Of a DNA stretch of 64,000 bases, positions 33,822 through 62,500 are shown one piece after another. A model generated the notes under the pieces. It was not told the origin of the DNA, ran no database searches, and worked only from the letters and a program-made list of their open reading frames with translations. The translations under genes and the position numbers were made by a program. Within the stretch, counting starts at the first letter, position 1; each line of letters begins with the position of its first letter. This DNA comes from a virus. The stretch spans positions 62,001 through 126,000 of IMG/VR virus record IMGVR_UViG_3300044673_000278, one strand, 5' to 3'.

Positions 33822-35702
33822 TTATGTTCTTTTGACAAAAGCTAATTTTTTCAGTCTGTCCAGATCTTCGTAGAAGCTGTCTGTGACTGCACCGCGGTGA
33901 TCCATGGGATCGGTTGAGTCTTCCGCTGCTACTTGTCGATCTTTGACGATTCTGTAGGTTCCCATTTTGGTCTTGACTACTCTGCCGCCAAACTCATTGG
34001 CAATTTCTTTGGCAGCACTGGGGCTGTCAACTGTGACCAACATGGGCCCAGAACCAGTTCCACTCTTTCTTGTTACATCATGTAGATAAAGATATTGTTC
34101 TTTTCCAAACTTGCTGGGCAAGAACTTGCCTGCTGGAACACTGGTATGGAATTCATAACTATCTAAATTTTCCGTCAGATCCGAATAGTTGGCATAGTAC
34201 TCATCGTACACAGAGTCGTCGCCGTGGTCCATGGCTGCATCAGCAGCACGTTTGCCAAAACGGGCGTCAATGTAGCTGTATAGCTCATCCAAGAAGCGCT
34301 CGCGATCTAAACCTGGCATGCTGACTCGCAGGTCTTCAATGGCATTGCCCACATAGTCGCTGGAACCTTCTTCCAGCGGAGCAACAGCACCTGCCACGGT
34401 ACCGCCCGTGCTTTCGTCCATGTCGCAACCGGCTTCGAAAGTGGCCAAGTTGTCGCCTTCGTTAACTTCGGGTTCGGGCTTAACACCCGGAACTTCCATG
34501 CCCATTTCTTTCATACGAGCAATGATCACGGGTCTAGCATCAGCGTCGGCATCGCGGTCAGCCAGTTCGCCCAGTCGATCAAACAGTTCGTCATCGCCTA
34601 GGATGTCATACAGTTGTTCTGTGGCATTGGCAGCATCAGGACCCACTGGCAGTTCCTGTGCCAACAAACTGTAGAGCTTGTCTTTGGCTTCAGGTGTTTC
34701 GGGCAAAGCCCAGGTACCTTCGACCAACTTGTTGGCCCATGACTCAAATTCGTTGGCTTCTTTCATTGTGCTTCCTTGTATCTTTGCCAGTGTGGGCAAT
34801 GCTGCTTCAATTCTGGTGTCCAGTGTTTGTTCAATAAACATGGTCTTGAGATCTTCAACCAGGGCTTCTTGTACGCCCACATCAGCTGGAGTCCAAGACT
34901 CAAAATAGTTTTGATAGCCACGAGCTGTGCCCATGTGCTTTAGATTGTTCTGTAGATTGTGATAGTATTCACGAGCAGCTTCTACCAACTGCTGTGTTTG
35001 GCCTTCAAACATTTTGTTTTGGCTGGCTCTATTGAATCTGGCCAGCACAGCCATTTCGTTCACAGTTTCAGCAATGTGAACACCGCGCACATCATAGGGC
35101 TTGCCGCCGTGACGCACATGTTCCAACATGGCTCGACCGCCTACTAGCTTGGTAAATGGTAATTTAAAACGTTCGCCATCGGCAGTTTCAATAAACAAAC
35201 TTTCCACATAGCGATAACGCTTGTCATCTTCGCCGATCAATCGATTGTGTTTGATTACTAAACGTGCATCTGTGGCTTCACCCATGTAGCTCACACGGCG
35301 ATTGCCATAGTAGCCTTCAAACAAACCTTCTTTGATAGCGGCCATGCCTGCCATGGTATGTTTGATTGCGTTTAGATTCTTGGGTGTAAATGTGTGGAAG
35401 TTATGGCGTGTGGCAAATTTACTGAGTTGTTGTAAGAAGCTGAACCATTGGTCTTTGTCACCTTCGTCTTCCATGCTCTTGCCAAGATTGTCACCAAAAA
35501 ACAGCATGAGCTCTTTGTCGTCTCCAATCAGTGCAACTGCGGTACCGTAGTTTTTGCCCGAAGCACCCATGTAGTCAAATTTGAAAACTGAGCCTTCATC
35601 GGGTGTGGTTTCCCGGCCTTGTGCGTCTGTGACTTGGGGGTCGAAGTTTTTGCTGACCAGTAAGTCATACAAATCTTTGCTGATGTTGATATCTTGTGCC
35701 AT
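33822..35702 (-). CDS. Conserved large T4-like phage protein (626 aa)
   Basis: I recall this protein as widespread in marine T4-like phages without an assigned role. The N-terminal third has DLYDLLVSKNFDPQ and FFGDNLGKSMEDE; the middle holds IKHTMAGMAAIKEGLFEGYY and the C terminus has repeated Asp/Glu-rich helices. No enzyme motif. Its late box is seven bases before the ATG. It ends at the terminator that overlaps the gene 32 promoter. Could be a head-associated or injected protein (inference). Confidence 0.8.
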   Translation of the reverse strand: MAQDINISKDLYDLLVSKNFDPQVTDAQGRETTPDEGSVFKFDYMGASGKNYGTAVALIGDDKELMLFFGDNLGKSMEDEGDKDQWFSFLQQLSKFATRHNFHTFTPKNLNAIKHTMAGMAAIKEGLFEGYYGNRRVSYMGEATDARLVIKHNRLIGEDDKRYRYVESLFIETADGERFKLPFTKLVGGRAMLEHVRHGGKPYDVRGVHIAETVNEMAVLARFNRASQNKMFEGQTQQLVEAAREYYHNLQNNLKHMGTARGYQNYFESWTPADVGVQEALVEDLKTMFIEQTLDTRIEAALPTLAKIQGSTMKEANEFESWANKLVEGTWALPETPEAKDKLYSLLAQELPVGPDAANATEQLYDILGDDELFDRLGELADRDADADARPVIIARMKEMGMEVPGVKPEPEVNEGDNLATFEAGCDMDESTGGTVAGAVAPLEEGSSDYVGNAIEDLRVSMPGLDRERFLDELYSYIDARFGKRAADAAMDHGDDSVYDEYYANYSDLTENLDSYEFHTSVPAGKFLPSKFGKEQYLYLHDVTRKSGTGSGPMLVTVDSPSAAKEIANEFGGRVVKTKMGTYRIVKDRQVAAEDSTDPMDHRGAVTDSFYEDLDRLKKLAFVKRT

Positions 35703-35709
35703 AGTTGTA

Positions 35710-35715
35710 TATTTA
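35710..35715 (-). promoter_or_regulatory. Late promoter box, leaderless type
   Basis: TAAATA on the minus strand, seven bases before the ATG at 35702. It overlaps the stop codon of gp17. Confidence 0.5.
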
Positions 35716-37302
35716 GCGCATTACAATAAAGGGCAAGGGTTCAACTACACTGTCAGAATGGTCCCGCAAATGTGTGTCTAAGTCACTGTGATAGCTCTGC
35801 AACAGCATCAGCATACGCCCAACCAACAATGTAGCCATTACAAGATCGTCTGTTTCTCCCATTTTGGCAGCATAGCTAGATCCGTTGGCCACAAAGTTTT
35901 TAAACTCGCTGATCAAGGGCTTTGAACGCAGTTTCATACGCCCTGATTCTATTAGAATCTTTACTTTGTTACAGGCAGTGAGCTTGGCTTTGTTTGTGGT
36001 GTTAAAGCCCTTGCGGAATCTGCGGCCTGTGCCTGCTACTACAGTGTTGTCACTTAGGAAGTAGCCAGGGATATTTTCTTCGCCGTATTCTGCGATACTG
36101 ATCAGTGCTGCTTCACCAATGGTATTGTTTTCCACTGAGTAATACACACTCTTATTGTCACGAGTAACAGCATAAAGTTCTTTGACAATGTCTGCCAGTA
36201 TGCGAACTTGATTGGGAATGTCTGTTTTGTTGTGTTTCCACTCAGCAATCTGTTCTGTGGTTCTGGCTTCGAACACTTGTATAGCAGCAGGATCTCCACC
36301 TGTGCCCAAACTGGGATCCATGGCTACAACATAGATTTCTCCTGCACGTGGTTCCCTGTACCAACGCACTTGTCCAGATTTACGTATGGGTTCTGTTCCT
36401 TCTAGCTCCAACAATTTAATAGGACTGATCAGTGTTTCGTCATTGATCACAAACTCGCAGTCCATTTCCCTGCGGAAACGTTCTTCGCCCAGCTGTGCTC
36501 TCTGCTCGTCGGCCCATTTTTCATCGCGATCTGGGTGTTCTCGCCAATAAGCACGGTAAGCTTTGAAGCCGTTAATGCCCACACCGCCGGGACGCGGATT
36601 ACCGTACTCGTCCTCAACTTTGTTGGCACCTTTCCAAATCAACGCAAACTGATCTTCGTCTGAGTTTGGTGTTGACGTAATAATAGCTTTACCACCTGTT
36701 GACAGCGTAGGCGTAATAGAAGTCCAGAATTCCGACGCAATAGTGGGACGCACGAACGCAAATTCGTCTAGGTACAGCAGTGTGATAGACATACCCCGGC
36801 CGGTGTTTTCAGTTGTGGTCTGACTGACAATACGACTGCCGTTTTCAAATTCTATCGAGCCCTTGTTGTAACTGGTAGCGCCTGCGCGAATGTGGTTGGG
36901 GCACAGTTCGTATGCGTATCGAATACGCTGCATGATTTCCTGTGCGCCCAAATATTTGTGTGCCGCAATAAGAATTGTCGAGTCCGGCACAAACATTGCG
37001 TACCACAACAGGTATCCTGCTGCTGAAGTTGACTTACCTGTCTGTCGAGGCATCAACGATATGGAGAAACGATTGTTGTGATAGTTTTCAATCAGTCTGC
37101 GCTGATACTCAAAAGGATGGTACAGCATCTTACCACGTGTGGGATGCTGGATGTAGAAGAAGTTGTCCATGAAATACATGGGCCCGTTGATGGGATCAGC
37201 GCATAGCGCAAATTCTTCTAGTTCTTGTTCAGTATATGTTTCACGCCTATGCGGCGCTTTGACTAGCACTGTTTCAAGATTTTTGGGTTGCATACCAATC
37301 AT
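35713..37302 (-). CDS. 17: Terminase large subunit gp17
   Basis: DNA-packaging motor and nuclease. ATPase: Walker A PRQTGKS (85-91), Walker B LLYLDE (D179, E180). Nuclease: VVAMDPSLGTGGDP and the C-terminal ETDDLVMATLL. 529 residues (T4: 610). The ATG at 37302 has an AGGA site; it overlaps the SGNH gene by 29 bases. The small subunit gp16 is 8.5 kb away rather than adjacent as in T4. Confidence 0.95.
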   Translation of the reverse strand: MIGMQPKNLETVLVKAPHRRETYTEQELEEFALCADPINGPMYFMDNFFYIQHPTRGKMLYHPFEYQRRLIENYHNNRFSISLMPRQTGKSTSAAGYLLWYAMFVPDSTILIAAHKYLGAQEIMQRIRYAYELCPNHIRAGATSYNKGSIEFENGSRIVSQTTTENTGRGMSITLLYLDEFAFVRPTIASEFWTSITPTLSTGGKAIITSTPNSDEDQFALIWKGANKVEDEYGNPRPGGVGINGFKAYRAYWREHPDRDEKWADEQRAQLGEERFRREMDCEFVINDETLISPIKLLELEGTEPIRKSGQVRWYREPRAGEIYVVAMDPSLGTGGDPAAIQVFEARTTEQIAEWKHNKTDIPNQVRILADIVKELYAVTRDNKSVYYSVENNTIGEAALISIAEYGEENIPGYFLSDNTVVAGTGRRFRKGFNTTNKAKLTACNKVKILIESGRMKLRSKPLISEFKNFVANGSSYAAKMGETDDLVMATLLVGRMLMLLQSYHSDLDTHLRDHSDSVVEPLPFIVMR

Positions 37303-38069: not shown

Positions 38070-39215
38070 TTATTTTCTGAGTTTGCTTACTAAATCCGGC
38101 CACAATTCTTGAAAGGTCTTTTGTTTTTTTAACACACTTTCAATCTCCGTGTGCCACTCTAGTACATCTATTTCTTTGTCTTTGTTAAACAAATAACTGT
38201 TATCAACCAACGAGTTGATGTATCCTTTTAGTGTATCTAACGCAAGATTATTTTTGGTCGAATATTTTTCCACTGTTCGATTGATTTCGTCGATAGCCTG
38301 TTGTCGAATTTCTATTGGTAGTCGACGAACATCAAGTTCGTGCGGATGAGTCAGTTCGCACCAAAACATGTCAAGTTCGTTGTCAACACAAAAGTCATAA
38401 TATGGAACCAACTCAAACGCACAATAGATGCTGTATGCAGGATGTGCAACAACATGTTGATTGTCTTGTTTCATTTGTGCAATGTTGGCAACAAATTGAT
38501 CCCAGTTGGCCCCATTGCGAACGTATTCAAACTTGTCTCGGTCCACATTGTCAAAACTAATCAACCAGTCAACTTTTTTCCATTTTTTCAATTCTTGATA
38601 CACAGGGTTATTTTTAATATCAACACTGAGATTTGTTGTTACCATAACACTGGTAGTTTCAGAATCAAGTTGCTGTAAAAACTCTGTCAGGCCCCTCTGC
38701 AGCAGAGGCTCGCCTCCGCCCAACGAAAGTCCCTTGATATTTTTCCCATGAGTTTTGGCCAACTCTATCAAGTCATTGTGCTCATTTTTGTTATGCACTA
38801 TGGGAATTTTTCGAACACTTTGCCAAGCGGTAGAAGTATGCGGATTACAATACACACAAGTTAGATTACACAGATTACTCCAGTTTATAACAACGTCATT
38901 GAGAGAGAACCATTCAATGTCTTGATCAATGTTTTGTTTGACTTCGTCTGATGCGGCACGCATTGTTCTTCCGCTGCTGCGACCGTTTGACTCAAGGTCT
39001 TGGCATATATTACATGCAGAATGCCATTCTCCCTGTGCAATGGTTTGTCTTAAATCTTGCAGCGGCTTGTCTTTTAAAATTTCCTGTATGGATTTTTCTT
39101 TAAGGCTACCTAGCTCATAGCTGCTGTGCATACACGGTAGCACCTTACCAGTTTGATCAATGTTCAAAAAAGTCCACGGCGAGGAACAGAACGTTTTGCT
39201 TTGACTTATTGACAT
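38070..39215 (-). CDS. Radical SAM/SPASM-like protein
   Basis: 381 residues from ATG 39215 (10-base overlap with the upstream gene). Radical SAM site C116-x3-C120-x2-C123 (NLCNLTCVYC), GGGEP after it. Cys at 10, 28, 68 and 71 suggest an auxiliary iron-sulfur cluster in the N terminus. Paralogue of the gene at 39206; the tandem pair probably acts on a related substrate. No substrate peptide is obvious. Confidence 0.85.
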   Translation of the reverse strand: MSISQSKTFCSSPWTFLNIDQTGKVLPCMHSSYELGSLKEKSIQEILKDKPLQDLRQTIAQGEWHSACNICQDLESNGRSSGRTMRAASDEVKQNIDQDIEWFSLNDVVINWSNLCNLTCVYCNPHTSTAWQSVRKIPIVHNKNEHNDLIELAKTHGKNIKGLSLGGGEPLLQRGLTEFLQQLDSETTSVMVTTNLSVDIKNNPVYQELKKWKKVDWLISFDNVDRDKFEYVRNGANWDQFVANIAQMKQDNQHVVAHPAYSIYCAFELVPYYDFCVDNELDMFWCELTHPHELDVRRLPIEIRQQAIDEINRTVEKYSTKNNLALDTLKGYINSLVDNSYLFNKDKEIDVLEWHTEIESVLKKQKTFQELWPDLVSKLRK

Positions 39216-40348
39216 AGATGTGCTAGCTCCGGCCATAGTTCCACAAACTTACCTTGTTGGTCCCGGTGATACTTGCTTTCAATTTCGGCAATGTGCTGAC
39301 GGAATTTGTGTTCGATCCCCGGCTTGGCAGCATCTACGTTTTTGTAGTTTTGCAAGCTTTGGTCAAAGAACTGTCGTTCTGCATCTGTGGCCAGACCTGT
39401 TTGATAGAACTTTTCTATTTCTTCAGCCGCTGCCTTTGCAACTTCGGGACCATGTAAGAAAGGATCAAGATAGTCTGGCTGGAACAAATTCTGCCACAGC
39501 ACTGTGGTATCTGTTTCGTGAGCAAACTGTCGCAGTTCGCAGACTCGTGTGGCACTGTAGATGTTGTACACAGCATGGATACCGCCCCACTGCCCTTGTG
39601 ACTTCATTAAATCTTTGATTACTGCAAGATTGTTTCGTATTGTATCCCAGCTTGCGCCGTGACGCACATATTCTAGTCTGCTGCCCACATTGTCAAAGCT
39701 CATAGACCAGCCTACTTTGTTGCGAGTGGCAAGCTTTTGGAATATTTTGTTCTTTTCAAAATCAACATTGAGATTGGTAATCAATGTAACAATAGCGTCT
39801 TTGGGTATAACATCCAACAAACGTTCGTTTTCGGGCAACAACAAGGGTTCTCCACCTACCAGTGCAACTTCGTGTATGTGATCGTGGTGCTGTTCTATAA
39901 AGTCGCAGACCTGATCGTAGTAGGGCCTGGCGCCAGATTTAAATGGAATGTTTTTGAGACTAGCCCATTTGCTGCTGCATGCTTCACCACAGTAGTTACA
40001 GCTTAGGTTACAAGTGGTGTTCCAACGCACATCTACGATCACAGGGTAGTGATACAGATCTCCAGCTGTGGCAAAATCAAAGTCTGGGTTTACATCGTTG
40101 TGCCATTTGCGTTCCGAGTCAGCACCAAAGCGTTCAGCACGAACACAATTGCTACAATACTCGTGTGGTTGTCCTTGGGCGAGACTTTGGCGTATTTCGG
40201 CCATTAAGTCACTGTTGAGAATTTCAACAATACTTTGTTGATTTAGATTGCCCAGCATGTTAGGGTTGCCAGCACAGCAAGTTTTGACATCCCCACGTGG
40301 ATTGATATGTAAGCCGCGCCAAGGTGCAGCACAGAAAAAATTACTCAT
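39206..40348 (-). CDS. Radical SAM/SPASM-like protein
   Basis: 380 residues. Radical SAM site C113-x3-C117-x2-C120 (TTCNLSCNYC), VGGEPLLLPEN later. N-terminal Cys (6, 24, 25, 65, 68) match the paralogue's auxiliary cluster. A late box lies only four bases before the ATG within a CCCGTA-AA-TACGGG palindrome. Substrate unknown. Confidence 0.85.
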   Translation of the reverse strand: MSNFFCAAPWRGLHINPRGDVKTCCAGNPNMLGNLNQQSIVEILNSDLMAEIRQSLAQGQPHEYCSNCVRAERFGADSERKWHNDVNPDFDFATAGDLYHYPVIVDVRWNTTCNLSCNYCGEACSSKWASLKNIPFKSGARPYYDQVCDFIEQHHDHIHEVALVGGEPLLLPENERLLDVIPKDAIVTLITNLNVDFEKNKIFQKLATRNKVGWSMSFDNVGSRLEYVRHGASWDTIRNNLAVIKDLMKSQGQWGGIHAVYNIYSATRVCELRQFAHETDTTVLWQNLFQPDYLDPFLHGPEVAKAAAEEIEKFYQTGLATDAERQFFDQSLQNYKNVDAAKPGIEHKFRQHIAEIESKYHRDQQGKFVELWPELAHLCQ

Positions 40349-40366: not shown

Positions 40367-40801
40367 TTATTGGCACCAGGATGTTTTGGCTTCGCCGAAG
40401 TATTCTCTAGCAAACCCATTGGCAATCAAACCGGCACGCAGACTACGACCGTCTAGAATGATATCTCCCAGGACACGGCCACCGAACTTATCCCAGGCAT
40501 ATAGCGTGACTTGTCGTTTTTGACTAGCTGCAACTGCATTTTTGGTAAATTGGGTAGCGGCTTGTCCTCGTTGATCTTCTGAAGGGCATTGAGCACGGAA
40601 TCCTTTTTCAGGTGTGTCAACGCCAAAGATTCGGACAGCGAGTTCGGGCTTGAGTGGAGCAGGTAGAAAGGGTGCAGAGATTACCACTGTGTCCCCGTCG
40701 TTGACGCGAACAATTTGTGCATCGTAAGTTACGCCTTGAGGTGTTTTTTGTGCCAGTGCCAGAACTGGCACCAACAGCAATGCTGCAATAATTTTTTTCA
40801 T
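40367..40801 (-). CDS. Secreted thermonuclease-like protein (SNase family)
   Basis: N-terminal signal peptide MKKIIAALLLVPVLALAQ, cleavage after ALA. SNase residues are in place: DGD (35-37), R57, D62, E65 in VRIFGVDTPE (56-65) and R109. At 144 residues it is the full single domain. It is predicted to be exported to the periplasm and to cut nucleic acids there. Coupled to the upstream head-type gene by ATGA overlap. Confidence 0.88.
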   Translation of the reverse strand: MKKIIAALLLVPVLALAQKTPQGVTYDAQIVRVNDGDTVVISAPFLPAPLKPELAVRIFGVDTPEKGFRAQCPSEDQRGQAATQFTKNAVAASQKRQVTLYAWDKFGGRVLGDIILDGRSLRAGLIANGFAREYFGEAKTSWCQ

Positions 40802-41202
40802 CTTGGATAGCCTTTGAATGCTTTGATTGGACTTTGCTTATCAACAAAATTGGGTTCTTCGCTGGGTGCAGTACTGACCATTTTCTTGCCGCCAGGTGTT
40901 TTGGTCATTTTCAATGCTTGATCAATTACAGGCTCAATGTTGTTGTTGAATCCAGCAATGACTGCGTGCTCGCCAAATGCTGTTTCGGCAGTCCACTCGG
41001 GCGTGAAGGGATCAATGTTGTCGTTCAATGGGCTCTGCTTGGAAGCATAGTCGGCTCTGGCTCGAGCCAGTGCCACACCAAATCTATAATTCTTATAAGG
41101 GTCTGCTGCACTCAGTCCGGGTAACACATAAGTGTAGCGCATAGGGTCAGCATACTCGGGTGGCAGCTCTCGTTGCTCTCTGATAAATTCACGAGCTCTC
41201 AT
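40798..41202 (-). CDS. Probable internal head protein with MRAREF start (134 aa)
   Basis: Begins MRAREFIREQ, like a T4 capsid-targeting peptide (MKTYQEFIAE), and ends KQSPIKAFKGYPR like its neighbour. The middle is unrelated to the neighbour. In T4 such N termini direct internal proteins into the prohead and gp21 cuts after the E. A role as an injected protein is inference. The FKGY codons carry the ribosome binding site for the nuclease. Confidence 0.7.
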   Translation of the reverse strand: MRAREFIREQRELPPEYADPMRYTYVLPGLSAADPYKNYRFGVALARARADYASKQSPLNDNIDPFTPEWTAETAFGEHAVIAGFNNNIEPVIDQALKMTKTPGGKKMVSTAPSEEPNFVDKQSPIKAFKGYPR

Positions 41203-41570
41203 CGTGGGTATCCTTTGAATGCCACAATGGGACTTTGTTTGTTTGTTGAATTGACTTCTTCTGAGTCCATGTCGCCGTGATTAAGATCTTCCCAATCTGC
41301 CCCAGCAGCTTTATAGGCTTGCTTGAGCATTTTTTGTTCTTCTTTGGTATATGGATGTGCAGATCGACGTGTGCCAATCCAGCTCATGTCTTCAATTTCT
41401 ACTGGCTTGTCTGTGCCATCGGCACAGGCGGCGGCCATCATCACACGGTTAAGAGTATAGTCGCTGTTGGTTTTGCGCTTGTCTCTAAACAAATTTAGGC
41501 CGCGAGTAGCCTGCTGAATTCTGTGACTAGGCTTACCAACTTGTTCTGCAACAAACTCACGTGCTCGCAT
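41199..41570 (-). CDS. Probable internal head protein with MRAREF start (123 aa)
   Basis: Begins MRAREFVAEQ and ends KQSPIVAFKGYPR. The middle has a charged basic/helical character (RDKRKTNSDYTLNRVMM). The last codons TTC AAA GGA TAC CCA CGA TGA supply AAAGGA and the ATGA start of the next gene. Capsid-targeting interpretation as for the neighbour. Function unknown. Confidence 0.7.
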   Translation of the reverse strand: MRAREFVAEQVGKPSHRIQQATRGLNLFRDKRKTNSDYTLNRVMMAAACADGTDKPVEIEDMSWIGTRRSAHPYTKEEQKMLKQAYKAAGADWEDLNHGDMDSEEVNSTNKQSPIVAFKGYPR

Positions 41571-41899
41571 TATGCGCTTCCTACACCTTTGGACGCAGCT
41601 TGAGCCGAACTTGCTGTTCCTAGTTCTTGAACTGTGAAGTTAGCACCTGTGATAGTTAACTTGTTGCCTACGCCTACATAAATGTCTTGACGACTGTTAG
41701 CTGGCACAGCCACTGCATTGCTGTAGATGTTACCAACAGGAGTTCCTACGTTGGCAGTGTTTCCGTTGGCAGGATTGACATAGGTCAACTGAACTGCTTC
41801 AACTTGAAACGTAACAGCAGTGTTGCCTGTACTAATTCGGGCTTTGTCTGTGAACCACGATTGCGCTGATGCACTGGTATAAACGTTTGCTTGTGGCAT
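41570..41899 (-). CDS. Probable virion protein (109 aa)
   Basis: Starts MPQANVYTSASAQSWF; beta-rich with Ala/Thr/Val, no charged clusters. Resembles small structural proteins of marine T4-like phages by recollection. It shares one base with the neighbouring genes (TAATG) on each side. Function unknown. Confidence 0.7.
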   Translation of the reverse strand: MPQANVYTSASAQSWFTDKARISTGNTAVTFQVEAVQLTYVNPANGNTANVGTPVGNIYSNAVAVPANSRQDIYVGVGNKLTITGANFTVQELGTASSAQAASKGVGSA

Positions 41900-42066
41900 T
41901 ATGAATTATCCTTGTTAGGCTGAGAAACCACTGGTTTGAACAGCTCTCGAGTTTGATACAGCACGCCAGGAATTTCTACTGGTTGTTGTTTGTATCCGTT
42001 GGTAGCAGGGCTGTGCGGATTTTGTTGCACAGGAGTATTAGGGACAGGGTTAAATGGTGTGTACAT
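41899..42066 (-). CDS. Pro/Asn-rich small protein (55 aa)
   Basis: Reads MYTPFNPVPNTPVQQNPHSP, followed by GYKQQPVEIPGVLYQTRELF and a polar tail. Probably unstructured. A stop/start overlap with the next gene and its place in the head-protein run support expression. Function unknown. Confidence 0.65.
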   Translation of the reverse strand: MYTPFNPVPNTPVQQNPHSPATNGYKQQPVEIPGVLYQTRELFKPVVSQPNKDNS

Positions 42067-42075
42067 ATTGTTTCC

Positions 42076-43206
42076 TTACCAGGCTCGGCAGCTCCAATAA
42101 CGTGCTTTCCAACGTGGACCTGGATTGTCGCAGTTGTGACGAGCACGGAAGTTTTTGCGGCGGCCTGGAATATTCTTCTTGATCTTCATGCCTTTTTGGC
42201 CAAAGTTAACTTTGACCACGTTGCCCTTGGGACCACGCACATAAACTTTTGATTTCTTAACATCGCCCTTCATGGGCTTGCCCAGCGGAACTTCACGGCC
42301 TCGATACTTGGCTTCTGTTACATCGTTCTGCAATGCATACTCTAACTCTGATGTATGAATTGTTCCATTGATAACACTTTGTATCATCTCGTTACGATCA
42401 GCATCTGGTTCAATTTTTAAAATATATTCGTCAATTAATTCCAGTGTTTCTGGATGTAATTGTTCGGAGCCTTCCGCCACACCTTGCTCATCAAGGGGTT
42501 CATCGGGCAGTTCTGCCAACATGCGAATAACATCACGAGTCCAACCACTGACATCACTGGAGCCAATTTCATCATCGGGACCAATGTTAACATAGTCCGC
42601 TAGCTCATCAATGGCATCCATGACTTTTTCTGGGCCGTGTGTGGCCAGCACGCCAGGATGTTGCATTAGGATTCTATTGAGCACTGCACGGGCCACTGGA
42701 TTGGGTTCGTTGTTGTCTTCGCTGACATAATCATCTTTGTTGCTTTCGATATAGTCAGCAGCAGTGTCTAAGTAGTCAGCAGCTTTGTTGATTTTGCTCT
42801 GTACCCACTCAGGCATGTTTTCATTGTCATCTAGCATGCCAGTGAGTCTACGAGCAGCACGAACAATGGTTTCAAGATCATCTTTGGCCATGTCGCCTTC
42901 AAAGTCATACTCACCAGCATCGGCCATAGGTACATCTTGGGCTTCCATACTAGCAATAGGCTTTACAGGAGCAGCAGCTATGTCTTTTTCTAGTTGACTA
43001 ATGTCGCCGTCGCTCAAGAAGCCATAGCTTTCTAACAAGCCCATCATCTTTTCGTCAGCATGCAGCACAATACCATCGTCGGTTTCGTCAACAATGTATG
43101 TTTCCAGCAAGCATTCTTCGCGAATATTGATAGCGAAGTTGTCGCCACGTACTGGGCGACTGTACTGATCTTCGGATTCTTGTAGATATTCGCGCAGTGA
43201 TTTCAT
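42076..43206 (-). CDS. Probable internal head protein with capsid-targeting N terminus (376 aa)
   Basis: From ATG 43206: MKSLREYLQE|SEDQ closely matches the T4 capsid-targeting peptide MKTYQEFIAE|A, with a gp21-type cleavage pattern (LxE then S). A second site is VAE|GSEQ near residue 248. The body is acidic; the last 60 residues are strongly basic (IKKNIPGRRKNFRARHNCDN). A prohead core or injected protein is likely. ATG follows the upstream stop by two bases. Confidence 0.75.
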   Translation of the reverse strand: MKSLREYLQESEDQYSRPVRGDNFAINIREECLLETYIVDETDDGIVLHADEKMMGLLESYGFLSDGDISQLEKDIAAAPVKPIASMEAQDVPMADAGEYDFEGDMAKDDLETIVRAARRLTGMLDDNENMPEWVQSKINKAADYLDTAADYIESNKDDYVSEDNNEPNPVARAVLNRILMQHPGVLATHGPEKVMDAIDELADYVNIGPDDEIGSSDVSGWTRDVIRMLAELPDEPLDEQGVAEGSEQLHPETLELIDEYILKIEPDADRNEMIQSVINGTIHTSELEYALQNDVTEAKYRGREVPLGKPMKGDVKKSKVYVRGPKGNVVKVNFGQKGMKIKKNIPGRRKNFRARHNCDNPGPRWKARYWSCRAW

Positions 43207-43208
43207 GA

Positions 43209-45116
43209 TTAGCCCTTGTATGCTTTCCACAGATTGTTCATGCTTTCGCGAACTTTTTCAAGATCGCCGTCGCCGTCTAAATCAGCTTCTTTCTTGCCAG
43301 CAGCACGAGCCTTGGCTAGGTTGCCAGTAAACTTGTTGCCTTCTTCTACGTCATCTTCTTCAACTTTTTTGGCTTCAGTTTTGATACCAGCCATTTCCAT
43401 CATACGACGGATGGCATCTTCTTCCATTTCAGCATAGCTGTGTTGACGTTCTTCTTGGCTAGCAATCACAGGCACAGTGGTCTGGCCAGTTGCCTTGGGC
43501 TTGTTGATACCGCCTGCATATTGCAGTGCATCGTCACTGGTTTCTGTTTCTGTGGGATAGTCAGGAGCGTTTTCTGTGGGTGTTGTATCACCATAGGCTT
43601 CGTCCATTTGTCCGTCGCAACCGCATGATGCTTGGCCGCAGCTGGGGCAAGCTTCTGCGCCTTCGCCACCTACACCAGCCATCTTCAACAATTCGCCTAG
43701 TTTTTCAGCATCGTCATCGGTGGCAGTTACTGTGAGGCTCTTAGTAGGGCCGCCCATTGCGTCATTGTTCATGTTCATTGAAACATTCATTGACTCAGCA
43801 ATCATGTCTTCAATTTCACGATTCATGCTGTCATAGATGCCTTTGCCAAAGCTGAATCCGCTGCTGGCAGTGGGTGTACCTGAGCCGCCGGCTTCTTCAG
43901 TTTTTTCTTTCTTGGCTTTCTTGGGCTTGTCGGCAGACTTGTCTGCTTCCTTATCCTTCTTAGGGGCCTTTTCTGGCAAACCTTTGTGCTTGGTCGCAGC
44001 AAAGTCTTTGGCATCTTTCTTGCCCATGCTCTTGGCTACTTTGGCAACTTCCTTGCTGGCAGGCTTTTCGCCTTTTTGTGCAGCATGGACCATGCCCATG
44101 AACTTTTGCTGTTTCTTGCTTACTGCTTTTTCGTCCAGCTCTTCTTCGCCGTCGCTCATCATTTCCAACACGCCTTGAATAGCATTGCCTAAGGCGTTTT
44201 TACCTTCCGCAAATGCTTGGTCCATTAGACGTTCAAGAACTTCACGATCTTCGGGTGTTGCTGATTCTTTGACTTTTTCGCCAGGCTCTTTGTCGCTGAG
44301 CTTGTGCTTGGTAACGTTGCCTTTGTGAGCAGGCAGTTTGACTTTGCCAACACCAAATGCTGACCAGTCGGGCTTGAGTTCAGCGCCTTGTTCAGTGTCA
44401 GTGGACTTCTTGGGACGACCGCGGCCACGTGGTGCAGCAGGCTTGACCTGTGGCTCATCATCTTTCTGAGCAGCGCCGCCATAACGCTTGCCAGCAATCT
44501 TACGAGTAACAGCACCTTTCATTGCTTCAGCAGCAACGTCGCCTAGCATTTCGTCAACTTCTTTTTTGGCGCCGGCAATCTTGTCAGCAAATGTGATCTT
44601 GTCAGCAGGGGGTGCTAACTTGGCAAATTTCTTTTGCTTGGGTGTCATAGGAGCCGCAGCTTCCTTGGCCAGTGGTGTACGTGGCTTTTCGCCTGTGGCA
44701 GGCAAACCCATTTTACGTTGTAGGTCTTTGCGCAGATCTTCGTCTGAACCGTGGCCCAGTGTGTCAAGAGCTTTGCTGCCAACTTTCTTAGCAACAGCAA
44801 CACCCTTGCGAACTACATCGCCCAGACCTTCTTCTACGCTTTCATTCTTGCCACGCAGTTTGGCCAACACAGCACCAGCTACTTTTTCGCCGCGCTCTTT
44901 GCTGCCATACTTTTCACCAGCTGACTTGGCAATCTTTTCAAAGTTTTTTCCTGGCTTGCCAATGTCCTTGCCGGTACGAGCCTTCTTGGCTGAGTAATCA
45001 CCAGTGGAGCCTTCGGCAACAGCAGGTTGAGCACCTTCGTTGAGGTTCTGGTGTACACTCTTAGGAGTGTCTAACACTTCTTTGAGTTTTTTGTTGATGT
45101 CGTAAAAGAATGTCAT
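43209..45116 (-). CDS. Lysine-rich internal head/core protein with AT-hook (635 aa)
   Basis: A low-complexity Lys/Ala/Glu-rich protein, typical of prohead core or DNA-packed internal proteins. Residues 229-237 read PRGRGRPKK, a canonical AT-hook. A cysteine cluster CPSCGQASCGC lies near residue 500. Several gp21-type sites occur (LNE|GAQ, VAE|GST, VEE|GLG, FAE|GKN). The start MTFFYDINKKLKEVL differs from the usual targeting peptide. DNA condensation in the head or on injection is inferred. Confidence 0.75.
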   Translation of the reverse strand: MTFFYDINKKLKEVLDTPKSVHQNLNEGAQPAVAEGSTGDYSAKKARTGKDIGKPGKNFEKIAKSAGEKYGSKERGEKVAGAVLAKLRGKNESVEEGLGDVVRKGVAVAKKVGSKALDTLGHGSDEDLRKDLQRKMGLPATGEKPRTPLAKEAAAPMTPKQKKFAKLAPPADKITFADKIAGAKKEVDEMLGDVAAEAMKGAVTRKIAGKRYGGAAQKDDEPQVKPAAPRGRGRPKKSTDTEQGAELKPDWSAFGVGKVKLPAHKGNVTKHKLSDKEPGEKVKESATPEDREVLERLMDQAFAEGKNALGNAIQGVLEMMSDGEEELDEKAVSKKQQKFMGMVHAAQKGEKPASKEVAKVAKSMGKKDAKDFAATKHKGLPEKAPKKDKEADKSADKPKKAKKEKTEEAGGSGTPTASSGFSFGKGIYDSMNREIEDMIAESMNVSMNMNNDAMGGPTKSLTVTATDDDAEKLGELLKMAGVGGEGAEACPSCGQASCGCDGQMDEAYGDTTPTENAPDYPTETETSDDALQYAGGINKPKATGQTTVPVIASQEERQHSYAEMEEDAIRRMMEMAGIKTEAKKVEEDDVEEGNKFTGNLAKARAAGKKEADLDGDGDLEKVRESMNNLWKAYKG

Positions 45117-45122
45117 TTGGTA

Positions 45123-45731
45123 TTATCCTCGAGGTTGGGCGCCAGTGGCTGGTTTTGGTGGACGCTTGATTGTGGTCATCGGGCTCTTGACGCCCTGAGG
45201 CAACTCATTGGTTGTCTTGGCTGGTGCAGTGCGTCCGCCAGCCACGGTAAAGTCTGAACGATAAGCATTTTTCAATACGTCGTGGTCGTAAGGACCAGTG
45301 GCATAATCTTTGCTCAAGGCTTTTTGTTCTCGATCTGGTGCAGGATAATCTGTGTCCTTCAGCAGGTCTTTGTTTTCGTCAGCGATCTTTTCGTACTCCT
45401 GAACCATGCCGTCGTTGTAGTTACGAGTGCTCATGATCACACGGTTAGGGTCAATGCCCAGCAACTGTGCTAGTTGCTTGATCTGAGGTTCGATGGCAGG
45501 GTAACGGAAGCTCACATCGAACATGCTCACTGACTCGTTCTTGAAGTTGGGAAAGTCAGTGGGAATGGCTTGTACAGGTGTGGTCTTGAGATCTGTCATA
45601 TTAACTGGATCAAATTGATCCAGCTTTTGTTTGAGTTGGCGAACAGCGTCAGCATCTACTTTACCGCAGATTTTGATGCGATAATCATAGGTTCTTTGGC
45701 TTTCGGCGAGGTAATTGGCGAATGTTTTCAT
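45123..45731 (-). CDS. Probable internal head protein with T4-like capsid-targeting sequence (202 aa)
   Basis: The N terminus MKTFANYLAE|SQRT is the closest match in the window to T4 MKTYQEFIAE|A. The remainder is a two-domain alpha/beta protein with a Pro/Lys-rich tail. Late box at 45749-45754. I recall homologues in marine T4-like phages. Predicted to be packaged and cut by the prohead protease. Confidence 0.75.
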   Translation of the reverse strand: MKTFANYLAESQRTYDYRIKICGKVDADAVRQLKQKLDQFDPVNMTDLKTTPVQAIPTDFPNFKNESVSMFDVSFRYPAIEPQIKQLAQLLGIDPNRVIMSTRNYNDGMVQEYEKIADENKDLLKDTDYPAPDREQKALSKDYATGPYDHDVLKNAYRSDFTVAGGRTAPAKTTNELPQGVKSPMTTIKRPPKPATGAQPRG

Positions 45732-45748
45732 TTCGATATCCTATGCTA

Positions 45749-45754
45749 TATTTA
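45749..45754 (-). promoter_or_regulatory. Late promoter box (ATAAATATA)
   Basis: TAAATA on the minus strand, 17 bases upstream of the ATG at 45731; it heads the internal-head-protein operon. Confidence 0.6.
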
Positions 45755-46258
45755 TTCTTTTGTGTCGTTTTGCTTGTTGCCGCCAATGATTCTAGCCAGC
45801 AAATCGTTACGACTCAGTACCACACCTGTGCCTTGTTGCACAGGCCCTTCTGGCTCTTCTTTGGCATCTAGTGCCGCTTGCTGTTGATCCAAACGCATTT
45901 TTTTCATTTGCAAATCAATCATCTTGAGCTTTTTGTCTAGTTTGGCAGTCTTGGCTGTGATAGCATGTCCCAGCATGTTAGATGCCACTGAAAAGATTTC
46001 GCTAGCAAAGCGACTGTCAACTTGCATGCCTAGATCCATGAGATCTTTGTAGCTGCCTGTGGCCATCTTGGCCAGTTCGTCCATTTCACTATCGGTTGCA
46101 TCCAAGCCCTTTACAGCAGGCAGTGCTTCGTCGATTTTGTCAATGGTTTCGTCCAGTGCTGCCAATGTTTCTCGGTTAGCAGGCAATTCGGGAATAGCAG
46201 CATCTACTTCGTCCGAAGTAGGCGGTAGATCAAACAGTTCTTCAAGTTTTTTGGTCAT
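45752..46258 (-). CDS. 16: Terminase small subunit gp16
   Basis: 168 residues (T4: 164), helical with two long central helices (SRFASEIFSVASNMLGHA and LDKKLKMIDLQMKKMRL), the plan of gp16, which forms a ring that regulates gp17. Pattern, size and T4-like context support the call. A late box is four bases before the ATG. It is separated from gp17 by about 8.5 kb. Confidence 0.75.
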   Translation of the reverse strand: MTKKLEELFDLPPTSDEVDAAIPELPANRETLAALDETIDKIDEALPAVKGLDATDSEMDELAKMATGSYKDLMDLGMQVDSRFASEIFSVASNMLGHAITAKTAKLDKKLKMIDLQMKKMRLDQQQAALDAKEEPEGPVQQGTGVVLSRNDLLARIIGGNKQNDTKE

Positions 46259-46273: not shown

Positions 46274-46705
46274 TTAATTTGACCCGTTGCGAAACATGTC
46301 GTTTTCGGTTATGACTCTGAAGTGTATGCCTTGCTTGGCGCACCATTTGGTTGCTGCGTCCCATTTGGCATAGTTGATAGCAACCACAGCACGATCTCTA
46401 CTGCTCATTTTGCTTTCGATTACACTTTGTTTTTTGGGTTTAATTTCGATCAGTTCTGCTCGCATGGTATTGTTGCGGGTACGATATGTGATCAAGAAGT
46501 CTGGAACATAGATAGTTTGTTTGCCTGTGAGCGGATGTCTGTAGGGTATTTGTATGGCTTCTGACGCCCATTGCAACACATTGTCGTTGGTGTCACAAAA
46601 GCGCATAAAGCTAAGTTCCCAGCCCGATCGATACCTGGGAGTTTTGTTCCCAACATATTTGTCAGGGTTTTGTACAGTGTAAAATCCTTGTGCCCACTTG
46701 CTCAT
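46274..46705 (-). CDS. 4: Head completion protein gp4
   Basis: The N-terminal part matches T4 gp4 plan: KYVGNKTPRYRSGWELSFMRFCD (residues 16-38, compare KYVGNKKPVYRSMWEYHFFKFCD) and later FLITYRTRN with ELIEIKPKK. This is a nuclease-like (TnsA/VSR-type) fold. In T4 gp4 completes filled heads before tail attachment. 143 residues (T4: 150). Confidence 0.9.
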   Translation of the reverse strand: MSKWAQGFYTVQNPDKYVGNKTPRYRSGWELSFMRFCDTNDNVLQWASEAIQIPYRHPLTGKQTIYVPDFLITYRTRNNTMRAELIEIKPKKQSVIESKMSSRDRAVVAINYAKWDAATKWCAKQGIHFRVITENDMFRNGSN

Positions 46706-59554: not shown

Positions 59555-62500
59555 GCCTGGCTTTCGAAATACTGCAACTGAATTTCAGCCAGCGGGTTAG
59601 ATACTGTTGTCAATGCTGTTAACTGAATTGCCAACACTTCTGGTCCGTTGGGGTAAACGCCAGTACCAGGAACTGCCGAAGTACCCATTTGTTTAACTGA
59701 ACTCAAATCCAATGTACCCGAGTTAGTGGTACTAATCGGGATAGCAAACAATCTTTCACCACCAGTTAGTTCTGTAGTAATAGCAGTCACTGTTAGGTTC
59801 AGATCATTAGCCGGAGTAGATCCACCAATGACGTTGCCTAAAATTCTTAGGGTGTCGCCAATTGCATAACCAGTGCCTGGGTTTTGCACTGTGATCTGAA
59901 CAGTGTTGTTGTTGTAAGTGGTGCCAGTGGCTGTGAGTTGCACTGTGAGGTTGGCTCCCGAACCTGAGCTCGACACCACAGTAGGCGTTAAGTTAGCATA
60001 GGTACGAGAATTACCAAAAGTCGGCTTGGTACCGCTCTTGGTAAAGCCACCAACGGATCCATACGACGAGCCAGTTAAACCACCGGTTGTTTCGTCAGTG
60101 TAGTTTGGCGCAGTTGAGAACTCGCACAAACTAGGTTGATAGCCACCACCTAAGTTGTTGATGCCTGTCCATGCTGTGCTTGCGGCATTGATGTTGCTGG
60201 GGTTGAGAATACCTTCAACTAGATAACGGCCAGCGGTGATGTTGATAATCATGTTCTTCAGTGTGACTTGAGCGCGGTTGATCAGGTCACGTTCGCCAAG
60301 ATCGCCGATGACACCGTTTGATACGCTGGGGCTGAGTCGCATACAGAATGCCACTTGCTTCTGGCCCACGGTGGCTGGCAGACCATAGTTCACGCGGTTG
60401 AATGTAAATTGATAACCTTCGTCGCCATCAAAGTTACCGTCCATGATTACTGAACTACCCCAGTGGTTAATCAACGGAGTACAAGTATTGGAGATCAAGA
60501 TAACACCAGTGTTGGCGTCATGGCTGGTAGCTGCAGAACTAGTAAAGCTGCGGTTAGCACCTTCGATCCACTGTGTAAATGTTGCTGCACGAGTACATCC
60601 AGTAAGGTCGTTACCACTCTTGCCCGAGTACTTGATGATTTCACTGTCGATCATCACATATGCAGGATATGTTACACTAGCAGGCGGGTAATACGTAGCA
60701 TCTACGAGAGAGATTGTGGTTTGACTTGCGTCAATTGCACTGGCCAAACGGTTCACTGGAGTTTCGTTAATGGCTTCGTAGCGAGCAGGCAAGTTACCTG
60801 AACGCATGTAAGCTTCATAGTTAACGTTGTTGTTGGGACGACGATGGCAAGGAATCATTTCGCCTGTTTGTCCACGAATCATCCATTGTGCATAACCTGC
60901 ACCATACCATGAATATTCAATACCCAACATCTGCATGCGGCCTGTGTTGAGTGTGTAGCCACTGGGTCCTGTACCGTCAAGTGGGTCAATGTTGAAGTCT
61001 GCTTGTTTGACACGGATTTCCTGGCGCAAGCACATCTTCACACGGTTCTGGTTAGATACACCTCGATACACAGGCACCACAGTCATACGTTGTTCATCCA
61101 AGATACTTGTCACAGTGTGTGTCATTCCTCGGATCACAACCACGTCGCCGTTGTTAAGCTGTTCTTGGAAGCGACTGATTTCGTTGCCCACAACCAAGTT
61201 AGATCCTGCACCCACGGACACTAGACCAGCAACTTGGAAGGTTGAACTGCGTTGCACTGCATTGATATTTTGTCCGTCACACTCCCAGAACAATCCGTTT
61301 TGATCATCAAAGATACCTGCACGAATAGATGCGCCTTGCCAGGCTTCCATGTTGACTCGTGGCTGAGGAGCTAGTTCAGGTGTAGTAGAACCAAGAGTTT
61401 CTTGTGCTTCAACTGTAAAAGTTAAATCGCTAACAATGCTGGTCACAACATAGCCAGTGTTGTTGTATCCAGATGTGCTCACACCAGAAAGTTCAAGCAC
61501 AGCGCCTGGATTCAGACCATGTTCAAGATCAGTTGTAACGGTAATGGTACTACCCGCTACTGTACCACTAGCAGTAATTGATGTGATATCAAATGTAGGT
61601 TTGAGCATGGTACCTGATGTGAACAAGATACCCTTACCAGACTGATAGCGGAAGTATTTTTTGGTCTGTCGTGCGGCACTGGCACCACGAGTAGGCACGC
61701 CTGGTCCCATGATAACACCTCCGTCGAAGGGTCTTGGCAGGAATGTAGCGTTGCTGCGAACGTTGATAATACCAGTTAGAGAGCCCGATACTGCGGCACC
61801 TGCTTTGGCAGTGAATGTGAATGTGGTTGTCGACGGTACACTGACTACGTAAAAACTACCCAATGCATATGCATAGTTTGTACCAGCGGTCATGTCAACC
61901 AAAATTGGGGTGCCAGGAACTAATCCGTGAGCGTATGTGGTTGTTACTGTGATGGTACTTGGATTGTTACCATCACTGACAATACTCACAATGTCTAAGT
62001 CTGCCCCAGTAAACGGATATGCTTCGCGAACCACTGTGTCAGTTCGATTCAATGGGTATCCTAGTGGATATCCTGGGTCACGATGTGGGTAGTAAGAAAA
62101 GTTGTTGGTGTTGTACCCATCAGCAGATATAATGTTAATACCGTTAACATCTGGATCAACAGACGACAATACAGTACAATATTCACCTTCGCCTTCGCCA
62201 ATGCCGTGATCAGGTGCGTTGACTGCCACTAACGGAATATTGGCGTTGGTGCTGGCATTGTACAAGCCAGTCATACGCACCATCAAAGATCCTGCACCTG
62301 CAAGTGTCAGCGGCGTTGAACTAAAAGCGCCACGGCTGATAGTCTGTAGACCGTTTACTGCTGTGTTAATGGCAGTGTGTTGTACTAATTCAACGTTGCC
62401 GCTGAGTTTTTGTATGATACTGCCCACAGCAGCTGAATTTACGCTGGGAATGTTATACCAGCCTCTAGTTAGATCTAATTCTGTACCGTTGGCAATTTCA

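Follow-up and report, generated by a model that had tools for sequence, protein, structure and literature searches.

A 64,000-nt window of a viral genome (IMG/VR record IMGVR_UViG_3300044673_000278, positions 62,001 to 126,000) contains an island of four genes whose products begin with peptides resembling the capsid-targeting sequence of bacteriophage T4. These products are very probably internal head proteins of the T4 type that are cleaved by a gp21-like protease and injected into the host. In T4, the internal proteins IPI, IPII and IPIII share the capsid-targeting sequence MKTYQEFIAE, which is cut by gp21, and are injected into the host. Unless another record is named, coordinates below are those of the window, the whole stretch of DNA that was analysed.

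All four tagged genes lie on the minus strand between a gene for a gp4-like head closure protein and the gene for the large terminase subunit, and a Shine-Dalgarno sequence precedes each of the four starts. The genes encode a 202-amino acid (aa) protein (45123..45731; tag MKTFANYLAE|S at 45702-45731), a 376-aa protein (42076..43206; MKSLREYLQE|S at 43177-43206), a 123-aa protein (41199..41570; MRAREFVAE|Q at 41544-41570) and a 134-aa protein (40798..41202; MRAREFIRE|Q at 41176-41202). The 376-aa gene starts at an internal ATG with its own Shine-Dalgarno sequence, the longer, mechanically called open reading frame (ORF) beginning at an upstream GTG; its tag has L4 at the position where an aromatic residue is expected. 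Exactly these four of the 84 genes called greedily over 124 kb matched the motif. When N termini were shuffled by column, the mean number of matches was 0.11 to 0.26, and four were never reached in 2000 shuffles. A search of the whole 251,693-bp record with three DNA patterns, as had been proposed, returned no further credible tagged gene start; MRDGVWYVSE at 2749 was considered as a fifth tag and dismissed because it sits inside a longer frame. The original prediction, which had been made from the letters of the window and had pointed to four T4-like N termini in this place, is thus confirmed as an observation.

To describe the conservation of the tag, relatives were gathered from the fetched loci using only residues outside the tag; the seed patterns used to fetch some of these loci contained the tag, a mild bias. 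For the 202-aa protein, 123 distinct homologues were obtained; positions 2, 4, 7, 8 and 10 had entropies below 0.45 bit, F4, Y7, L8 and E10 being near-invariant, and positions 3, 5, 6 and 9 varied (entropy above 2 bits). Residues 4, 7, 8 and 10, all near-invariant here, are the ones that mutational mapping singled out in the capsid-targeting sequence of T4: according to mutants of IPIII, targeting depends mainly on residues 4 and 7 and processing on residues 8 and 10 (PMC9026906). In the nine-residue frame of the MRAxEF families, represented by 113 relatives of the 123-aa protein and 92 of the 134-aa protein, F6 and E9 are fixed, residue 7 is hydrophobic ([IVL]) and residue 8 is free. One member with a four-residue insertion still has I-x-E. 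Each of 24 relative loci carried two to four tagged genes in the island: the 202-aa gene was constant, a tagged gene with a YWSC[RK].W-type C terminus followed it in 8 of the 24, and up to three MRAxEF genes were present, ending in SP.xFxGYPR-like tails.

The processing machinery that such tags call for in T4 is encoded in the same record. The original prediction depended on a gp21-like protease, and a Peptidase_S77 (Pfam PF03420) was found at G000:148335-148802 with E 6.3e-24. The record also encodes a gp22-like scaffold, an acidic gp67-like core protein, a portal and a gp23-type capsid protein. The last of these has a predicted cleavage site, YLKE|NAS, close to the point of propeptide removal in T4 gp23, and the predicted site in ten relatives is YLAE|S or YLSE|S, a near letter-for-letter match to the end of the tag. 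As a separate observation, a gp67-like core protein (L003:2840-3706) has the C terminus GVNTKSPLPGGRKG, of which GVN[TNA]KS is kept in several relatives. This end loosely resembles the SP tail found in MRAxEF proteins and is possibly a second shared core motif.

The same tag is spread over unrelated proteins in other phages. Pattern scans of IMG/VR with MRAxEFxxE and MKTFxxYLxE matched at least 120 stretches each; a control motif with permuted codons gave 30 matches in the whole collection. Among the distinct matches listed, 97 of 123 and 102 of 120 (199 of 243 together) lay at the starts of open frames, as against 1 of 23 distinct matches of the permuted motif at gene starts. Stripped of the tag, the carriers among the matches listed fell into 69 clusters of mutually unrelated proteins, a minority of which are chance internal matches. 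The carriers listed include a DnaJ-domain protein, DUF6267, GNAT acetyltransferases, a Zeta-toxin-like protein, a member of an RNA-polymerase-inhibitor family and a phage lysozyme. Matches in helicase, tail tube and similar proteins were probably chance internal ones and were excluded from cargo. On a 21.8-kb viral contig, the tag MKTFREYLAE|A stands at the start of an Acb1 protein (L364:2104-2574; anti-CBASS, PF23474, E 2.8e-23), an arrangement suggesting that pre-loaded anti-CBASS activity may be delivered along with the DNA. Peptidase_S77 was present in 12 of 17 tagged contigs longer than 100 kb and in 1 of 8 controls, these being mostly short contigs.

Virion proteomes of other phages contain tagged proteins. 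Three cyanophages with published virion proteomes were considered, S-CREM2, S-SCSM1 and S-SZBM1. The S-CREM2 virion proteome comprises 52 proteins (PMC10665884). In the genome of this phage the tag pattern matched five annotated starts (gp6, gp13, gp14, gp154 and the doubtful gp17), and the virion list contains every one of them; gp6 is a SAM hydrolase, gp14 a kinase (APH/ChoK) and gp154 a cytidylyltransferase. A tagged NMNAT was detected in the virion of S-SCSM1 (PMC9602691), and the virion cytidylyltransferase of S-SZBM1, the only enzyme singled out in its list, starts MRFRQFIIE|A (PMC9146016). Every packaged NMNAT/cytidylyltransferase of the three cyanophages is tagged. When an aromatic residue before the site was required, 6 of 9 tagged genes of the three phages were detected in virions (stratified P = 0.0018); with a permissive pattern, 7 of 14 tagged starts were detected (P = 0.006). 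Both values are given because the stricter aromatic rule was chosen after the matches had been seen. No targeting signal is named in the passages of the three papers that were considered; earlier notice of it in subscription journals is possible.

Two other virion proteins of S-CREM2 are recorded here for their own sake. The Cas9-like nuclease gp12 (L443:7704-10313) has LRFASFMAE|A in residues 17-25, as would be seen if the gene start were misassigned or extended and a tag followed it. The protein gp136 (L444:3302-4015), detected by mass spectrometry (MS), adjoins the small terminase and starts MQTFSMFFSE. Its place matches that of the 202-aa protein; homology between these two proteins was looked for and not found.

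Homologues of island proteins themselves have also been detected in virions. PA5oct gp282 (L166:8001-8603), a virion protein according to electrospray ionization tandem MS (ESI-MS/MS), is a homologue of the 202-aa protein and aligns with it from residue 1. The gene order of PA5oct matches that of the island, and the adjacent gp281, positional counterpart of the gene for a 635-aa protein of the island, was likewise found in the virion by ESI-MS/MS. In the S-SCSM1 virion, MS detected ORF93, a DUF3008-like homologue of part of the 635-aa protein. Together, these data support the earlier interpretation of the tagged products as T4-like targeted internal head proteins.

We propose that the tagged proteins would be made late in infection and that their first 9-10 residues would attach to the prohead's gp22-type scaffold core, drawing the protein inside. 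A gp21-type protease would cut following the hydrophobic-x-Glu site, and the mature cargo would remain in the head beside the DNA and enter the host together with it. The tag would be modular, joined in related phages to many unrelated cargos, some with a known enzymatic or counter-defence function. From the comparisons above we infer that the four proteins of this phage are probably packaged, cleaved and injected in this manner. That the window cargos act early in infection or against host defence is a guess, made because of T4 IPI and IPIII (PMC9026906, PMC9391042) and the tagged Acb1 elsewhere. IPI counters GmrSD, and IPIII is needed on E. coli ECOR17, where its role is probably counter-defence (PMC9391042).

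Several points weigh against this proposal. The virion MS data come from phages other than this one, and the 635-aa protein of the island is without a tag. PA5oct gp282, a distant homologue, starts MKSFRDYYDA|S, in which the beginning of the tag is kept and the LxE site is absent. Cleavage is therefore not universal and may be less widely conserved than targeting; gp282 may be targeted without gp21-type cleavage or may be cut with a different specificity. The tagged small proteins S-SCSM1 ORF30 and S-SZBM1 gp191/192 were undetected in virions, and the authors of the S-SCSM1 (PMC9602691) and S-CREM2 (PMC10665884) studies leave contamination open. Finally, none of the four window cargos matched a counter-defence family in Pfam or PHROG.

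It is also possible, if somewhat doubtful, that the tagged proteins belong to the prohead core or assist assembly; they would be packaged and cleaved but serve head assembly or DNA packing and have no action in the host. This explanation invokes the same tag mechanism and differs in the role of the cargo only. The 202-aa gene would suit it well: it is a fixed anchor in 24 of 24 relative loci and lies between head-closure and terminase genes, likewise in PA5oct. T4 IPIII itself influences head assembly (PMC9026906), and the end of the gp67-like core protein, GVNTKSP.., bears a loose likeness to the SP tail in the MRAxEF families. By contrast, the 376-aa and MRAxEF genes differ in number and size between the 24 relative loci, and elsewhere the same tag occurs on Acb1, a DnaJ-domain protein and GNAT acetyltransferases, which have no evident assembly role.

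Compared with injection of T4-type internal proteins, the preferred reading, two further explanations fare poorly. It is improbable that the N-terminal motif is some other signal (membrane association, a partner-binding helix or phage-nucleus import) whose likeness to T4 is superficial. The motif is indeed short, AlphaFold2 models it as helical in the 202-aa protein (residues 4-11), and in some phages (PA5oct) the helix occurs without an LxE site. However, another signal would not account for a Glu conserved at the predicted P1 next to a P2 that is free to vary; moreover, tagged proteins are enriched in virions, the tags co-occur with a gp21-type protease, and capsid, scaffold and protease all mark the phage as T4-type. 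Descent of the shared N termini from a single gene family, or chance, is hardly credible: the 123- and 134-aa proteins do share both ends, but their middles are unrelated, the other two proteins differ throughout, the tag sits on dozens of unrelated families, shuffles never give four and the permuted motif does not fall at gene starts.

With respect to the cargo, the 202-aa protein was predicted to have an alpha/beta ferredoxin-like domain after the tag (AlphaFold2, Foldseek) and matched PHROG 14802, 'virion structural protein', with E 2e-5. A modest ferredoxin-like similarity of the model to ribosomal protein S6 (template modelling score about 0.5-0.6 of target) was set aside as too generic for function. 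The AlphaFold2 model of the 123-aa protein was poor (predicted local distance difference test 60, predicted template modelling score 0.34), and a tblastn search of isolated phages gave no matches to either the 123- or the 134-aa protein.

The original prediction had described the remainder of each tagged protein as unrelated. This was nearly right: the middles of the 123- and 134-aa proteins are without detectable homology (hhalign probability 0.6%), and these proteins have common ends, including the tail KQSPI.AFKGYPR, which drive a full-length probability of 98.7%. The tails, SPIVAFKGYPR in the 123-aa and SPIKAFKGYPR in the 134-aa protein, are encoded by a 63-nt repeat on the minus strand, copy 1 at 40798..40860 within the 134-aa gene and copy 2 at 41199..41261, 71% identical to copy 1. 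The pattern looks like replacement of cargo between conserved ends, or separate selection of both ends. AAAGGA in copy 1 may double as the ribosome-binding site of the next gene; since the KGYPR codons overlap that site, part of the conservation of the tail may be translational.

The 635-aa protein (43209..45116, minus strand) is Lys-rich and contains a DUF3008-like stretch and one AT-hook, RGRGRPK, at residue 230. The AT-hook had been predicted correctly; the several LxE|G-type sites described along with it held up less well, as the 11 LxE-like sites are only marginally above the 6.5 expected from composition (p = 0.056). As regards the 376-aa protein, its C-terminal domain of ~80 aa (RHNCDNPGP..YWSCRAW; 42076-42330) is widespread in marine phages and was observed in phages of Pelagibacter, Roseobacter, Flavobacterium and Methylophilales, small ones included.

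Five further genes of the island and its flanks are also on the minus strand. A 55-aa Pro-rich protein (41899..42066) and a 109-aa protein (41570..41899), the latter a candidate virion protein, are untagged members of the same operon without a family match. Preceding the tagged island are a 168-aa helical protein (45752..46258; 40% identical to PA5oct gp283) and, at the island boundary, the gp4-like head closure protein (46274..46705; PHROG 218, E 2e-41). By position alone, the 168-aa protein may be small-terminase-like; homology to the small terminase of S-CREM2 was looked for and not found. The large terminase subunit (35713..37302; PHROG 36964, E 3e-120) lies on the opposite side. Directly 3' of the tagged genes is a Staphylococcal-nuclease-like protein with a signal peptide (MKKIIAALLLVPVLALA; 40367-40801), two radical-SAM proteins stand side by side between the island and the large terminase (38070-40348), and a 626-aa protein past the terminase (33822-35702) matches the virion structural protein family PHROG 13484.

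Overall, we consider it likely that T4-type phages of freshwater and marine bacteria use the T4 capsid-targeting sequence as a general, exchangeable label, one that would explain the enzymes of cyanophage virions, pre-load counter-defence or host-takeover proteins such as Acb1, and make this repertoire readable from genomes. If the label works across T4-type phages, injected effectors could be listed from genomes alone and many 'hypothetical' genes would become testable early-infection effectors. It would also help to decide whether the virion enzymes of cyanophages are real cargo or contamination. The island is a variant of the T4 internal-protein system, and the wider spread of the tag is the part most worth following.

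The closest known system is that of T4 IPI, IPII and IPIII, with which the island shares an N-terminal tag of 9-10 residues with equal functional positions, a hydrophobic-x-Glu site, unrelated mature parts, and a genome that encodes an S77-type prohead protease and a gp22-type scaffold. Unlike in T4, the cargos are not T4 internal proteins, their mature parts are neutral to acidic, MRAxEF[ILV]xE is a nine-residue variant combined with a common C-terminal tail, and the genes form an island flanked by head-closure and terminase genes. A further comparison is with T4 Alt, which is packaged and ADP-ribosylates the RNA polymerase of the host. Alt is a head-carried, injected enzyme, and several tagged cargos in other phages are enzymes too; it differs in that no cargo scanned matched an ADP-ribosyltransferase family. 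The virion enzymes of S-CREM2, S-SCSM1 and S-SZBM1 have a like tag and were detected in CsCl-purified virions, whereas their cargo types are unlike those in the window. In the ejection proteins of SPN3US and phiKZ, the propeptides are mostly longer than 100 residues, with another motif and in another capsid lineage, but there too a prohead protease removes the propeptides and the proteins are ejected with the DNA (PMC5694885).

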